A DNA stretch of 64,000 bases from Brachycybe producta. Lineage: Eukaryota; Arthropoda; Diplopoda; Playtdesmida; Andrognathidae. The notes below the pieces were generated by a model that was not told the origin of the DNA, searched no databases, and worked only from the letters and a program-made list of their open reading frames with translations. The translations under genes were made by a program, and so were the position numbers. Positions 1-7,600 of this stretch are shown piece by piece. The first letter of the stretch is position 1, and each line of letters opens with the position of its first letter. The stretch lies in contig JAUPFP010000003.1 in NCBI GenBank assembly GCA_036925085.1, positions 11,058,008 to 11,122,007 on the forward strand, given 5' to 3'.

Positions 1-2030
1 GACGTTGCACATGCCTTTCTTACAGAATGCCTGTAGCCATTTTATACAATTGCTATTGCTATGCATTAGTTACCCATAATGCACTTAACTTTGTGTTCAA
101 TTTGAAAACACTTCTGCCAGTTTGCTGGTTCCCTTTGTAGTTTTACTTGTTCAGTTACAAGAGTGACCACAGTTTATTTTCAAACAAACTTGGTTTTCAA
201 ACGCCATCTACTATAATTTCTTTGAGCGGCTGCAAGCGGCCGTATTAATTTAGGAGTTCTCAAATGAAACCATGAACAGTTTTGAAATGTTTCATTTTTT
301 ATCCTCTTCCATTTTATTTCCTGTTGAGTTTCCTCATAACTTATTAAGCTCCCAATTCCGCGTGGAGGAAAATTAAAATTGTCTCCTGTTATTATTACTG
401 ACAATGATACAAATTGTTACGTCAGTTTATATTTAAAAAAAAATTAGAAACTGTTTGCAGTTGATTGTGATATATATATATATATTTTTCAAAGAGTTGA
501 TATATGGTGGTGGTCCACAGAAAAGTTTTTGTTTCTTAAGATTTTAACGAGCCGAAGAGACCGAACAAGAGTTCAAAGTGTAGCATGGGAAATGCATCGT
601 AATAAAATAACTACCGAAAGTGCCACAATGCCGTTAAGGAATAGTTCTAATCGAACAATTTTGACTCGTAAGGCGTGGTACACAACTGTTCTTCGGATGC
701 ATGTGGTGGATTTTGTTAATTCAGTCCGATTTTAATGGCTTTTTCATCTTGGACTAATCTTCTATTGCAGATTTTCACTTCTATTTATTAGTCAATTTTA
801 ATGGTGTGTGGTGTAGATTGACTAGCCTTGTAGCGTGGGAAACATACATATTTTAACGAAGTTCATGTTTCCAATGATGGGAGGAAAATGAGCGTTTAGT
901 AACATTCTACGTGGGCAGAGTATATTTTTTTTTTTATCTTTTTAAGATAAAAAAAATATACTCTGCCCACATAGATTGTTGAATGAAAACTTAGCATTTT
1001 AAATTAAGCCAGGATGCACACACCAGAATTGATGTGTGGATGCAACCTAGGGTAATTTCTGAGTGCAAAAACTTTTAATCTGGCAGGAAAACGGCCTTTT
1101 GTGCTTTGGCAATTACACGTGATGTAAGCTGGTCTTTCGTACGTGTCACTAATTCCGATCTTGTTGAAATTGACCCTCAATTATTTATCAAAAATTTTCA
1201 ATGGCTGTGGTTTTTTGCAAGTCACGCTGTTGTTAATTCGAGTCTTAAAGTTAACACATTAACATATTAAACCCCTTTGATTCAACAACTCGAAAGATCA
1301 GGAAACTTATTCTAAATAAATATAAATGTTGAAAACGTCCCGAGTGATTGTTTGTGATGGTTTTTAGCTTCTCTTCCTGTCTGTGGGCCACCACACATAA
1401 GAGAAAATAAATGTGTTTATTTGTAAATATAATTAATTATTAAACACACGGAGATCCCATGTGTTGTTTGAATTTTTTTGGAAAAAAAGTCTTAAAATTG
1501 TGCATGAAATAACAATTGTAAATATATTTTGTATAGATTGGGTTCAAGTTTGAGAAATCAAGTGTGTTTTTGTCCATTCAAATAAAAGTAGTTACTATTT
1601 TACTCTCAATTGACTCAAGTTCTTGTTTATTCTTAAGTCTACTTCAGTATTTGTGAAATTATTCAATTGTAATTAGAAATGTTAGTTATGCTCGTATAAC
1701 TAAATTGTGCATTTAAATACCGCAAACATTATAGTAAGTGTCATCAAAAAACATCTTTAAGCTGAACAGTAGGAGAATTATTTTAAATCACTGGCCTTTG
1801 TTCATATCAATGTTCTATTCTGGTCATGTTTTTTTTGGAAATTTGTTACTTCTGTTCCTGGGAAAAGGGCATACATTGTAACAAACTAGTGTGTCTGTTT
1901 TTATCACTCATCTAGCCATTCATCCTTTTGTCACTCCCATTTCTTGGAGGTGGTGTATGGGTCATAATTAATATACGTTTTATATATATATAAAGTGTAA
2001 TTATATATATATGTAAAAAATATTTTATAG
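1..2030. other. AT-rich spacer without recognisable gene
   Basis: No open frame here has a recognisable domain, and the few short frames are broken at random. The stretch holds short TA runs near 471-484 and 1981-2012 and one strong hairpin at 906-975. I see no RNA gene or promoter I would defend. Confidence 0.6.
906..975. repeat. 70 bp near-perfect hairpin
   Basis: The arm starting GTGGGCAGAGTATAT at 911 is mirrored by its complement ending CTCTGCCCAC at 970. The pairing runs through a T-run against an A-run to a loop of only a few bases near 941-945. About 30 base pairs are contiguous. It looks like a very short foldback transposon or a transcribed hairpin. No flanking duplication was found. 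Confidence 0.7.
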
Positions 2031-2148
2031 CTCACGAGTGAATTCTATCTCACGAGTGAATTCTATATCCCAAGTATACAATAATAACTGTTAAACAAAA
2101 CCAGCAACAGATGGCAGTGTTGTGCTTCATGATGCACCACAAGGTTTA
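2031..2148 (+). repeat. Left terminal inverted repeat of the transposase/HECT element
   Basis: It begins with two direct copies of the 18-mer CTCACGAGTGAATTCTAT, the second slightly altered at its edge, then a unique stretch ending near AAGGTTTA. It matches 6944-7061 in reverse complement at 116 of 118 positions by eye. The preceding bases (TTTTATAG) do not match the right flank. Confidence 0.9.
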
Positions 2149-2259
2149 GGGGTAAAGGGAGCCTGTTACAATTTATTTCTCATTCACTTTGGCAGCTCTA
2201 GTGATTATTTGAGTCATAAACCAGGTGTCATAAGATTATCACACTTCCATCAATCAAAA

Positions 2260-3865
2260 ATGATTTCATTCACAAATTCTGCAATTATTGCAATATTATT
2301 TCTTTTCTGTGCAAAAGTACAATGTGTGTATGGAAATGATATACAACAATATCTACAAGACCTTGTAGCAGACTATAACCAGGCGAACCGACACATGTAT
2401 AGTTCGGATGTTAATTTTTTAGAACTGTGGCATAGAAAACTTGCAGAACATTGTAGACTACTTGGTTTACTACTCTTGCTTGTTCAGTCTCAAAATATGC
2501 AAGAGATTTGCACTCTGCTCCAATCATTATATAATTTGGTTTGGACCTTGTTCAATAATTATGATGGCCAGATGGAAACGCCTTTAACTACTGACAACAA
2601 TCAATTTGAATGCCCTGTATTACATACTGGCTCTAGAGGAAGACCGACCTGGCTTCAACATATCTACAGATAAAATTAGATTTTTACGGAATAGTTCTAT
2701 GCCATGGTCAAGAATTTGTAATGTTTTGAATGTCTCAACACGAACACTATTCAGACATCGGCAACGTCTTAACCTTATAACAGATGCTTTTCTTGATGAA
2801 AAAATTTTAGCCATCTACAATGAGACACCAAATGTTGGAGAAACATACATAATCGGAGCTATGCGAGCCCAGCAGTTAAGAGTGCGAAAGTGGAAAATAC
2901 GAGAAAGGCTGAATATTTTAGACCCTGTTGGGCGGGCTCTTCGCAGGACAACAGCCATAAAACGACGCATATATAACGTGAAATGTCCCAATGCTCTATG
3001 GTTTGTATACATCTAGCATTGTGACTACTGTAAATATATCATTGTAATCTAAATGTTAGTCCAGAAAATTTCTTACAAATCAATTTTAAGTGAATGGAAA
3101 CTATTAGGGCTGAAAGTTATTTATTTTCAGGCACATCGATTCTAACCATAAACTCATTGGTACAGATTTGTATTACCATGGATGTGTTGATGGTTTCAGC
3201 AGAATGATAGTCTATTTGCACTGCTGTGCAAACAACAAGGCTGGAAAGTTTTAATTTTTTTTGAAAGTGGAGCCTGTATGTTTGGTGTACCAAGTCGCGT
3301 CCGTGGTGACCATGGTACAGAAAACATACATGTTGCAAAATACATGATTGAACAACGAGGCCTCAATAGAGATAGTTTTCTTGTCAGGAAATCTGTCCAC
3401 AATCAGAGGATTGAAAGGTTGTGGGCCAAAGTTAATAGAGTAGTCACTGCACATTATAAAAATCTGTTCTCATTAATGGAAGCTGAAGGAGTCCTTGATG
3501 AACATAACAGTGTTGATTTATTTAGCCTGCATTACATTTTCTTACCACGTATTCAGCAAAGTGCTGATGAATTTGTGAAACAATGGAACTACCATGGCCT
3601 GAGTACTGCACATGGTTTATCTCCTATACAGCTTTGGCAAATGGGAATTGTGCAACAAAATATAACACACATTAGTGACTGTAATGTAAATCCACTTTGC
3701 TATGGTGTAGATCCAGGTGGTCCTGTTGGTCCGATACAAACCAACAATTGTGTACAGGTTCCAGAATTGGACATTCATCTATCTGAAATTCAAATGGAAG
3801 CACTGCAGCAAATTGTGCCTGATGTACTAAAGATGATGGGCATAAGGGGTGCAATTGTATATTGA
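2260..3865 (+). pseudogene. rve/IS3-type DDE transposase, one intron, two frame breaks
   Basis: Integrase-core transposase that would cut and join the element ends. The N-terminal part (2260-2650) is helical and ends in the family motif HTGSRGRP. One base too many near 2640-2660 moves the frame. A helix-turn-helix region follows (2660-2790, with ICNVLNVSTRTLFRHR), then a basic stretch ending NALW. An intron with GT at 3001 and AG at 3130 splits the NALW/HID junction exactly. The first catalytic Asp is in HID at 3138-3140, the second in RGDHGTEN at 3308-3310 and the Glu in NQRIERLW at 3413-3415, so the spacing is DD34E. A second break (one base missing) lies in the T-rich run at 3244-3257. All three acidic residues survive. 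The segment from 2260 reads like a signal peptide, so the true start may be later or upstream. Similar integrase-core proteins are common in fish, cnidarian and mollusc genomes. The stop is at 3863-3865, just before the pogo-like MITE. Confidence 0.85.
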
Positions 3866-3948
3866 CACACGTAACTTCATATGCAATTTTTTTCCAATCT
3901 AAAAAATCTTACTGACAGCTTGTTATCAAACTAGTATTAAAGGTTATA

Positions 3949-4125
3949 CAGTAGAATTCGGGTAATTCGTATCCTGAGTAACTCGTGTATCCTGCTAATT
4001 CGTACAAAATTGCCAGTTCCTTGAAAAAATCTCTTAGCTAATTATTCTCTCGCTAAGTTGAATATCTCGATAATTCGTATTTATTCCTCAGACCCTTGAA
4101 GATACGAATTATCGAGATTATACTG
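3949..4125. mobile_element. pogo/Tigger-like MITE, 177 bp
   Basis: The ends CAGTAGAATTCGGGTAATTC and the inverse of GAATTATCGAGATTATACTG pair with a few mismatches, and both flanks are TA (3947-3948 and 4126-4127). A CAGT start, an AATTCG-rich terminus and a TA duplication are typical of pogo-type Tc1/mariner elements. It lies in the gap between the convergent transposase and HECT genes. Confidence 0.75.
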
Positions 4126-4581
4126 TATACTGTATCTAGTTCTTGATTATCTTTTTTAATTTCTTTTACTGAATTTGGTCGCTTGTGAATTTTAATTGTG
4201 ATATTAAAAACATTTATTCAGTATAAAAAAACAAAATGAAAATGATTGAAATTAAAGAACTCGGGTAACAAAATATTAATTAGTTATAATAACGTTAATG
4301 ACAATAAAATGAATAACATTAAAATGAACAACAATAAAATGAATGTTTTTCTGTTCTTTTTGCAATAATTGATTCACAAAAAATTGTAAAAATCAAGCAG
4401 AATTGTGCGTGTCTAATGTTCTAAGCAGTTTCACATTCTATCAGATTGTGTTTTAATGAATTTTACTTAAATTTTTATGGTACATTTAAAAGGACACTTT
4501 TTCAAAAACCTAATGAAAATTCAAGGTGGTTTATATATTTATATATATAATTGCTTCCAGATAGTTACTCGTAGCCAAACA

Positions 4582-6694
4582 CTAATCCTTCTTGGATTCC
4601 ACGATCCATACCACATTTGAAATCTCATATGTTGTGTGGATAACTGGGAGTTTCATTATCAGTCCACATGTGTTTGCCTTAGGGTGTGGTGAATCATCTC
4701 CATGAAGGAATGTAATCATAGGCTCAAGCTCAAACCCCAGTGGTGGTAATATGCTTGCTCCAGGGGAAAAGGCCAACACGTCTTCTAAAGATGCCTCTGC
4801 TTCATTTTCTAAAAATTAAGTTTTAAAAATTAGTTTTCACATCAGCAACTTTTAAATACTCAATTTACCTTCACAGTCCAACAGGTAATCTCGCCAGTAA
4901 CCAATGACTTTCGTTTCAACAGTGCGACGATTACTACCATCAACAGAAGTGGACTGCACTTTTAATAGTGATTTCATTGCATTAGCAGACAACTTGTTTT
5001 TCTCTGAATAGCAAAATATTTCCTTAAATGCAGATGGATCCATTTGCATATAACTATATAACTGAAGAGTATTTAGGCCTTCAATGAACTGTTCTAATGC
5101 TGGCCGGATTCGATGAATGACATAGAAGGCCACAGCACTGTTGTTGAGAATAGAGTCCTTTTGTTCATATGTGTTTACAAAATTTGGGCAACCACAAATA
5201 GTAAAAAAAATGTAACTCCTCCATAAAAATATGTTGAAGAGATTGTAAATCTGTTGTATCTTTGACAGCTTGATTCTTCGCATGAATTTCTCCATTTGCG
5301 ATGTCATCCAGTGTTGCTTTGATTGAATCAATACCACAGGTTATCATCGAAAATAGAACATCTGAAATGAAGCCTGGACCGGGTCCATCATGGATAATAG
5401 ACATGGCTATGATTCGACCTGCTTCAAAGTAGTGATTCTTTTTGAGGGCATCACTGTTGAATGTCAGGGTCTTTTTGTACTCTGGTCCTTCGAACAAATG
5501 ACTGCTGAAGATATTTCAGTAGAATTCGCCAAAGTTCCCGAGTATGCCCTCCGTTATCGATTTCCCCCTCAGAGATTTCCTCTGATTCGAAGTTAAGGTT
5601 GATGAACATTACATTGACTTTGGAGAATGCGGAAAATGTTCTTCTTCACATAGCTCGAATGGCACAGTCAAATGCTTCTTCCCTGTTTATATTAAATATG
5701 GTTGTTTTGGTCTCATTACACTGACTTTTGATTTTTCGTATAATTGAACAAAGGTCAACATCATCATCATTTGGCATTTCAACCAACACATTGGCTGCAT
5801 ATTCTTGACATTGGAGAATCTCAGGTAATGCACAGTCTTCTTGTTGCTGGAATTGATATGGTTCGGCTAAAACTGACCTGCAAATATTGTCAGCAGTGTT
5901 TTCAAAGATATTCAAATCTTCTGGTTCAGACATATCACTGATTTGTGCAAATTCTTCGTCTGACCCCACATAAATGGGTTCATTGGCTATGGTGACTGGA
6001 ATATCCACTTCAGGACATACATTACACATTTTTTATGTGAAACTCTACATAAAACAGTCCCATCCAATTTTTCTCCATTTTCCAAAAAAATGCTTACAAG
6101 TTGGCCACACATCGGCATGCGAATCTCAAATTGAACATCATTTGGAAGTAGTTCACGGAAAAGTTCCCTTAGTTTTCCATTGATTTCTGCTTCACTCCAC
6201 TCTTTGAAAAATGTTACTTGAGAAACTGCCCACTTTTCTTGGATAGCTTTAGCTTTTGCTTTTCCAACAAGTGTCTTTGCTTGCTTGGAAGATTTCAGAA
6301 GAATGACATCTCTTGCAAATGATGTGCACTTAGACTTTACTTTTAGTTTCTTTCTTGCTGGCGGCTTTGGATTTGATGTGCAAAGAAACTGGGAGAAGCT
6401 AGAAGTTGTTACTGATGGCCGAACAGATGGGAAAAGACGATGAATTTCTTCTTGTATTGAAGATGATGGGACCTGACGATAAACATTTGGTTGCAAGTTA
6501 CTTGTTGTTTCATGCATTGATGTGGAGGCCACACTTGATGTTGTGGGTTGATTTGATGTTGTTTGGACTCCTGAAGGTTCCTGCACTGGTGTACTCCGAA
6601 TTGCATTCTCTAATCCATGTCGAAATTGTGGGCTGTTTAGGACCTGTTCGACAAGGCTCTCAATTGAATGTTGTTCAGGAACACTTGATGACAT
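4582..6694 (-). pseudogene. HECT-domain E3 ubiquitin ligase-like gene inside the transposon
   Basis: Likely ubiquitin transferase resembling the G2E3-type HECT proteins of animals. The N-terminal block (6694-6030) is Ser/Thr-rich, then has a compact domain with WSEAEINGKLRELF. The frame changes near 6030; an acidic linker follows. The HECT N-lobe begins near 5640 with EGEIDNGGHTREL and continues after a frame change near 5505 with LFEGPEYKK and IIHDGPGPGF. A TGA at 5646-5648 interrupts the start of the N-lobe where a sense codon is expected. Another frame change falls in the A8 run at 5203-5210. A 60 bp intron (4868-4809, GT-AG on the minus strand) leads to the C-lobe, with KANTCG carrying the catalytic Cys at 4666-4668, then KLPVIHTTYE and the stop. 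The C-lobe is intact. It faces the transposase gene and starts about 250 bp inside the right TIR. A captured host ligase, or a standard cargo of this transposon family, are both possible. Confidence 0.8.
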
Positions 6695-6943
6695 TGTTTA
6701 AAGAATTATCTAACATTGAACAAACAAATTAATAAATTATATACAGTGATCAATATATGAATACCTTTGAATGATGTAGTACTGAGGCTCAATTCTGTGA
6801 CAATGTCCCAAAATGCTCACAGTGATGATATTTTGTGTTCATACTGGTTATGATTTCTATTAATCACTAGAGCTGCCAATTTTTATAAGCGAATGAGAAA
6901 TCTATTGTTAAAGGCTCCCTCTATGTATGGCTATAGTACATGT

Positions 6944-7079
6944 TAAACCTTGTGGTGCATCATAAAGCACAACACTGCCATCTGTTGCTGGTTTTGTTTA
7001 ACAGTTATCATTGTATACTTGGGATATAGAATTCACTCGTGAGATAGAATTCACTCGTGAGATACAATTCACTCGTCAC
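6944..7079 (-). repeat. Right terminal inverted repeat with an extra subrepeat
   Basis: 6944-7061 is the inverse of the left TIR. Outside it lies a third, degenerate copy of the 18 bp subrepeat (ATACAATTCACTCGTCAC, 7062-7079) that has no counterpart on the left. The true transposon boundary is therefore either 7061 or about 7079. Confidence 0.85.
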
Positions 7080-7224
7080 TTGAATTTTTGTTGCCATTTT
7101 ATTTGTCAGGGTTGTTACAACAAAACAACACCAATATTAAAATAGAAGAAACCTTACAACACCTTTTTACTTTAGAATGGATGAACCACACAAAAGTAAT
7201 AAATAAAACAAGTGAAAAAGTGAC

Positions 7225-7600
7225 AAGTTGACAAACTTGACAAGCTGGCAACTGTGTTCAAGTTGACAAGCTGGCAACTGTGTTCAAGTTGACAAACTGA
7301 CAAGCTGGCAACTGTGTTCAAGTTGACAAACGGACAAGCTGGCAACTGTGTTCAAGTTGACAAACGGACAAGCTGGCAACTGTGTTCAAGTTGACAAACG
7401 GACAAGCTGGCAACTGTGTTCAAGTTGACAAACGGACAAGCTGGCAACTGTGTTCAAGTTGACAAACGGACAAGCTGGCAACTGTGTTCAAGTTGACAAA
7501 CGGACAAGCTGGCAACTGTGTTCAAGTTGACAAATGGACAAGCTGGCAACTGTGTTCAAGTTGACAAATAGACAAGCTGGCAACTATGTTCAAGTTGACA
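7225..7600. repeat. 34 bp minisatellite, about 11 copies
   Basis: The unit reads CAAGTTGACAAACGGACAAG followed by CTGGCAACTGTGTT. Central copies are identical; the first ones are shorter or altered and the last two carry single changes. There are no variable spacers, so this is a minisatellite and not a CRISPR array. It begins about 150 bp outside the right transposon end. Confidence 0.95.

Follow-up and report, generated by a model that had tools for sequence, protein, structure and literature searches.

A decayed IS3EU-like transposon in the millipede Brachycybe producta pairs its transposase with a convergent HECT ubiquitin-ligase gene

A stretch of 64,000 nucleotides from the genome of the millipede Brachycybe producta (GenBank assembly GCA_036925085.1, contig JAUPFP010000003.1, positions 11,058,008 to 11,122,007; hereafter the window) carries a decayed transposable element in which a DDE transposase gene and a gene for a HECT E3 ubiquitin ligase converge between inverted arms. 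We think it probable that this is a two-gene transposon of the IS3EU superfamily whose HECT ligase belongs to the element and serves it. The observations that carry this reading, all drawn from sequence, are the pairing of the two genes, their fixed convergent layout, intact and recent copies elsewhere in the same genome, exact target duplications, a predicted HECT fold and a conserved cysteine. On these grounds the ligase looks like a regular part of such elements and not an accident. According to the portion of PMC10045372 available to us, IS3EU elements have an IS3/IS481-like DDE transposase, TA..TA ends and, usually, 6-bp target duplications. We took a match to the Pfam family rva_4 as the mark of this transposase type, and the window element appears to fit the superfamily.

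The window element consists of the following parts, in which TIR stands for terminal inverted repeat and ORF for open reading frame.

1944..2030, + strand: outer left TIR with a decayed, AT-rich terminus (alignment with the short element L003, family-end match, 18-mer match)
2031..2148, + strand: inner left TIR, with two 18-bp tandem units at its start (2031-2066)
2260..3016, + strand: N-terminal part of the transposase with a helix-turn-helix (HTH)-like piece, broken, in two overlapping frames (ORFs 2122-2673 and 2606-3016)
3132..3865, + strand: DDE core of the transposase, rva_4 (PF24764), split near 3250 by a stop and a frame change
4585..4806, - strand: final exon of the HECT gene; its catalytic-cysteine motif PKANTC has the Cys codon at 4666-4668, from the Pfam HECT match and translation
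4855..5208, - strand: HECT piece (paralogous loci were found using ORF 4855-5337)
5219..5500, - strand: HECT piece, from translation
5499..5645, - strand: HECT piece after the in-frame stop, ending in a frame change, from translation
5649..6029, - strand: middle part of the HECT gene, with a frame change on its 5' side, from ORF and translation
6029..6694, - strand: N-terminal part of the HECT gene, with a basic stretch PPARKKLKVKSK that by eye resembles a nuclear localization signal, from ORF and translation
6944..7061, - strand: inner right TIR, counterpart of 2031-2148
7062..7076, - strand: third 18-bp unit, partial, past which (beyond 7076) the outer right end was not found

The core of the transposase is clear. 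The ORF at 3278-3865 (+) matches rva_4 with 154.5 bits (cut-off 26), and 34 residues separate the second D from the E, which bears out the DD34E rve transposase of a preliminary description of this DNA. Its N-terminal region is less distinct: the match of ORF 2606-3016 to HTH_29/HTH_23 (E 0.013) is below the Pfam cut-offs, and the first part of the region resembles, by eye, the copy at C3:11.29 Mb (loci are given by our own labels). The HECT gene runs from 6694 to 4585 on the - strand in six pieces, with frame changes, one in-frame stop (5646-5648) and a presumed intron at about 4807-4854. By itself, its last exon (4585-4812) reaches 18.9 bits against Pfam HECT, under the cut-off of 23.9. A read-through translation of all six pieces, which covers profile positions 12-284 of 306, scores 34.8 bits, in line with the HECT domain described earlier. 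A PDB sequence search with the window HECT returned one match, which lay outside the HECT region and was not used. Frame changes and stops break both genes, and in its present form this copy cannot function.

The two inverted arms of 118 bp, 2031-2148 and 6944-7061, differ at 2 positions (98.3% identity) and enclose the convergent genes, just as first described. The extent then given to the element, 2031..7061, was too short: the left flank at 1944-2030 also belongs to it. Judging from the alignments, the left end lies near 1944 and the 118-bp arms are the inner part of longer inverted repeats. Specifically, 1947-2150 aligns with L003 (C13:3360.9 kb) at 78% over 208 columns, the family end TATGAGGCGCCGTTTGGGTC agrees with the left flank at 14 of 20 positions, and an 18-mer neighbouring that end is found 18/18 identical at 1959-1976 (a match with up to 3 mismatches occurs somewhere in 7 of 100 shuffled windows). 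The alignment with a second short element, L004, begins only at 1978, and the terminus itself is decayed, reading TTGGAGG. We rejected the 118-bp arms as the whole TIR: in the short elements of this genome the TIR extends further, contains 18-bp tandem units and has the outer ends TATGAGGCGCC.

On the right, the end pattern has no match in the window at up to 3 mismatches, a threshold that would miss a right end with as many mismatches as the left has (6/20). The neighbouring 18-mer has its single window match on the left side and none on the right, and 7065-7400, compared with shuffles, gave no signal above the shuffled level. About 190 bp past the last recognisable right-end piece, a 34-bp tandem repeat of about 10 copies begins (7265-7600).

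Taken alone, a broken copy whose last HECT exon is under the Pfam cut-off could be two neighbouring decayed repeats, or a host HECT gene that overlaps transposon ends by chance. The nearly identical arms around both genes speak against this, and it is refuted by intact elements in the same genome that enclose both genes between exact target duplications; we regard it as extremely improbable. These elements, found through the transposase matches in the host genome, form a family of four copies (C13:3.60 Mb, C7, C11 and C45) of about 7 kb, 97.2-99.7% identical over long matches. Their inverted repeats, measured in the C13 copy, align over 845 columns at 92%; the repeats can be shifted against each other in 20-bp steps and are therefore built of units of about 20 bp. 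The termini are TACGGAGCCC..GGGCTCCGTA, that is, TACGG..CCGTA, and all three readable copies are flanked by 6-bp target duplications: CTCTCC (C13), GTTAAG (C7) and GGGTTG (C11), the left end of the C45 copy lying beyond the sequence covered.

In all four copies, a 389-residue transposase (rva_4, 111.5 bits, cut-off 26) and a 632-residue HECT protein are open and convergent. The HECT proteins are identical among the copies; between any two copies the HECT gene shows 0-2 nucleotide differences, every one of them synonymous, and the transposase gene shows 0-1, non-synonymous. To judge from such copies, the family has moved recently. The intact HECT protein (P0124) scores 26.9 bits against Pfam HECT, and those of C1:14.1 Mb and C3:10.1 Mb score 42.8 and 32.9 bits. 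Residue C598 is invariant across 12 aligned HECT proteins, and its counterpart in the window is the PKANTC motif. A bilobal HECT fold with the conserved cysteine is predicted, which likens the protein to the HECT E3 ligases HUWE1 and UBR5; the structure comparison by VIA-align covers the chains ranked top by Foldseek. In the intact element, a ubiquitin-like fold is also predicted ahead of the HECT domain, at residues 73-174 of P0124 (L090).

The pairing extends well beyond this family. An rva_4 search of the genome gave 36 matches, grouped by hand into 25 transposase loci, and a HECT search gave 71 matches in 33 clusters, which with the matches of two other searches make 46 HECT loci. HECT lies within 10 kb of 14 of the 25 transposase loci, convergent in all 14, and within 5 kb of 11; uniform placement would expect 0.08 and 0.04 pairs, respectively, an expectation that is too low because the matches cluster on parts of C1 and C3. 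With the Pfam family matches alone, 10 of the 25 loci have HECT within 10 kb, again all convergent. The pair count is a lower bound because the genome searches missed a HECT piece on C55 (L018, 925-1383, + strand), which sits beside a convergent transposase and is 92% identical to the HECT of C3:10.11 Mb. Moreover, the transposase locus at C3:10.58 Mb has a weak HECT candidate. The pairing first noted in the window is thus supported as something other than an isolated capture, and the accompanying statement that ubiquitin ligases are not normal transposon cargo was too strong for the IS3EU superfamily here.

Across the genome, pairs of HECT proteins are 21-89% identical, and their divergence is concordant with that of the transposases (two proteins without a partner in the set, the transposase of C1:12.3 Mb and the HECT of C1:14.1 Mb, were left out of this correlation). 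These figures bear on whether the element carries the HECT gene as a passenger, taken over from a host HECT gene and of no benefit to the element. Transposons are known to capture cargo, and HECT loci are common in the host genome, with 33 clusters of Pfam matches. On the other hand, the same convergent layout recurs in about seven lineages, the HECTs are deeply diverged, and the gene is intact in all four young copies; we consider passive capture quite unlikely.

Several observations weigh against our main reading, a two-gene IS3EU element with a ligase of its own. The 14 pairs are not all independent of one another; grouped by us, with no tree, they make up about seven lineages. Four belong to one family, a single HECT is shared by C3:10.10 and C3:10.11 Mb, and the copies at C3:11.29 and C12:2.29 Mb resemble each other at 90% (terminal repeats of these last two copies were not found). 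In 3 of the 14 the partners are far apart, at 6.9 kb (C1:18.83 Mb), 9.2 kb (C1:17.25 Mb) and 9.4 kb (C3:10.10 Mb). A scored HECT inside 10 kb is lacking at 11 of the 25 transposase loci, C55 among them. Intact 490-residue rva_4 transposases without one stand at L014 (C1:10.50 Mb) and L015 (C6:8.25 Mb), where the nearest HECT match is about 12 kb downstream on the same strand. Between the two stretches, identity is 99.6% over 3.39 kb; this points to duplication of the stretch more than to two separate transpositions, and this transposase is possibly a duplicated or domesticated gene.

Conversely, 33 of the 46 HECT loci have no rva_4 match inside 10 kb. Most of them may be host genes, but some of them (C3:11.35, C1:18.80 and C1:18.36 Mb) are similar to the HECT of the intact transposon, with pieces that match it at 54-85% and E <1e-17. 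The intact copies differ too little from one another for selection on HECT to be proved, and the spacing between D and E is 40 residues in that family versus 34 in the window copy. The window copy is dead, and with its right outer end not found its own target duplication is unreadable. Outside this genome, three GTDB contigs binned with a bacterial sponge symbiont (L095-L097), which are probably sponge DNA misbinned with the bacterium, encode IS3EU-type transposases, and no HECT is visible by eye among ORFs of at least 70 residues in the short sequence downstream of them (about 1 kb in L095; about 2 kb, mostly retroelement, in L096; none in L097). Pattern-based scans of viral contigs found no relative of the transposase and none of the intact HECT.

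Terminal repeats without a HECT gene, which the preliminary description took as telling against the pairing, turned up only as short non-autonomous elements. Seven sites in the genome match a 26-base pattern for the core of the inner arm with at most 2 mismatches, two of them in the window and five elsewhere; three of the outside sites (L003, L004 and L007) lie in short elements with outer ends like TATGAGGCGCCGTTTGGGTC, and the other two (L005 and L006) adjoin a different repeat. Half-sites of the outer end, at up to 3 mismatches, number 77 forward and 81 reverse, with none for a reversed control pattern. Pairing the best-matching 30 of these 158 half-sites, plus sites from one further search, gave 25 end pairs of 74-1827 bp (one is nested in another; all 25 are counted). 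Exact 6-bp target duplications flank 15 of the 25, and each other length from 2 to 9 bp occurs 0-2 times. These elements end in TATGAGG.., matching the TA..TA rule. Their places are absent from the rva_4 and HECT match lists; such elements therefore carry neither gene and leave the pairing unrefuted. Between its two inner arms, L004 (C9:3910.9 kb) holds TTAGG/CCTAA repeats, at about 1585-1620 of its reverse complement, which we take to resemble the arthropod telomere repeat.

Two-gene IS3EU elements are already known; what may be new is the HECT partner. In the accessible text of PMC12730594, fungal TET-bearing IS3EU elements have an alpha-kinase gene opposite to the transposase, TET/JBP between the two and 6-bp duplications, and those of rust fungi end in TAYGG..CCRTA. 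The millipede elements share with them a second enzyme gene opposite the transposase, and the ends of the intact family are of this kind; the partner differs, being alpha-kinase with TET/JBP in fungal hosts and a HECT ligase gene here. The Styx element of Zymoseptoria, in the part of PMC10853768 seen, is proposed to descend from an IS3EU element 'encoding two proteins' and has four ORFs: a transposase, two with GATA and CCHC motifs and one with DUF3577. The word 'ubiquitin' is absent from its description (PMC10853768). The intact family shares the transposase type, the TA..TA ends and the 6-bp duplications of IS3EU, whose description, as far as available to us, has no HECT gene (PMC10045372). 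A HECT partner of IS3EU was not found in the literature searched; Repbase, which may record one, was outside that search.

Might domestication instead have turned the HECT genes of this transposon type into host genes that spread as 'G2E3-like' genes, the HECT locus here being mainly a host gene? HECT relatives in loach and crinoid do bear the annotation G2E3-like. G2E3 orthologues have PHD/RING-like fingers ahead of the HECT domain, and Pfam finds none in the window protein or P0124, so that neither qualifies as an orthologue. In particular, HECT is the only Pfam domain in the window protein, the intact protein and five of six relatives (in the sixth there is also a zinc-ribbon match, weak and under its cut-off). 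Moreover, the intact HECT genes lie inside terminal repeats, together with which they move. In favour of domestication, G2E3 is listed among matches of unclassified repeats in a study of fish (PMC5638112). All in all, we find this explanation unlikely.

We return to a ligase that belongs to the element and serves it. In such an element, the DDE transposase would move the DNA between its TA..TA ends, producing the 6-bp target duplications, and the convergent HECT E3 ligase would be the element's own, retained across lineages and presumably made together with the transposase. By ubiquitylating a nuclear protein, the ligase would let the element transpose, or escape silencing, more efficiently. 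Its action is most likely to the element's advantage, and a host silencing or repair factor seems a slightly more likely substrate than the transposase itself. That it serves the element is suggested by analogy with the TET/JBP study, which argues from mostly undisrupted frames and several families per genome that the additional enzyme works for the transposon family carrying it (PMC12730594).

A possible, less probable course is that the ligase targets the element's own transpososome, ubiquitylating the transposase after strand transfer or when it is too abundant, for removal by the proteasome or an unfoldase. The model is the clearing of Mu transposase by ClpX. Conserved co-occurrence and concordant divergence would suit a partner that recognises its own transposase; the sequence, however, holds no pointer to the substrate, be it a host factor for silencing or repair or the element's transposase.

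More tentatively, animal IS3EU elements in general might be two-gene transposons in which HECT is a dedicated factor for transposition, ubiquitylating the strand-transfer complex or the host silencing machinery (one lineage has a predicted ubiquitin-like domain at the HECT N terminus), and many 'G2E3-like' genes of fish and invertebrates might be transposon genes or their domesticated descendants. If the ligase does belong to the element, a transposon with its own ubiquitin ligase would have a route to reprogramme host protein turnover, and the number of genes annotated as G2E3-like that in truth belong to transposons would come into question.

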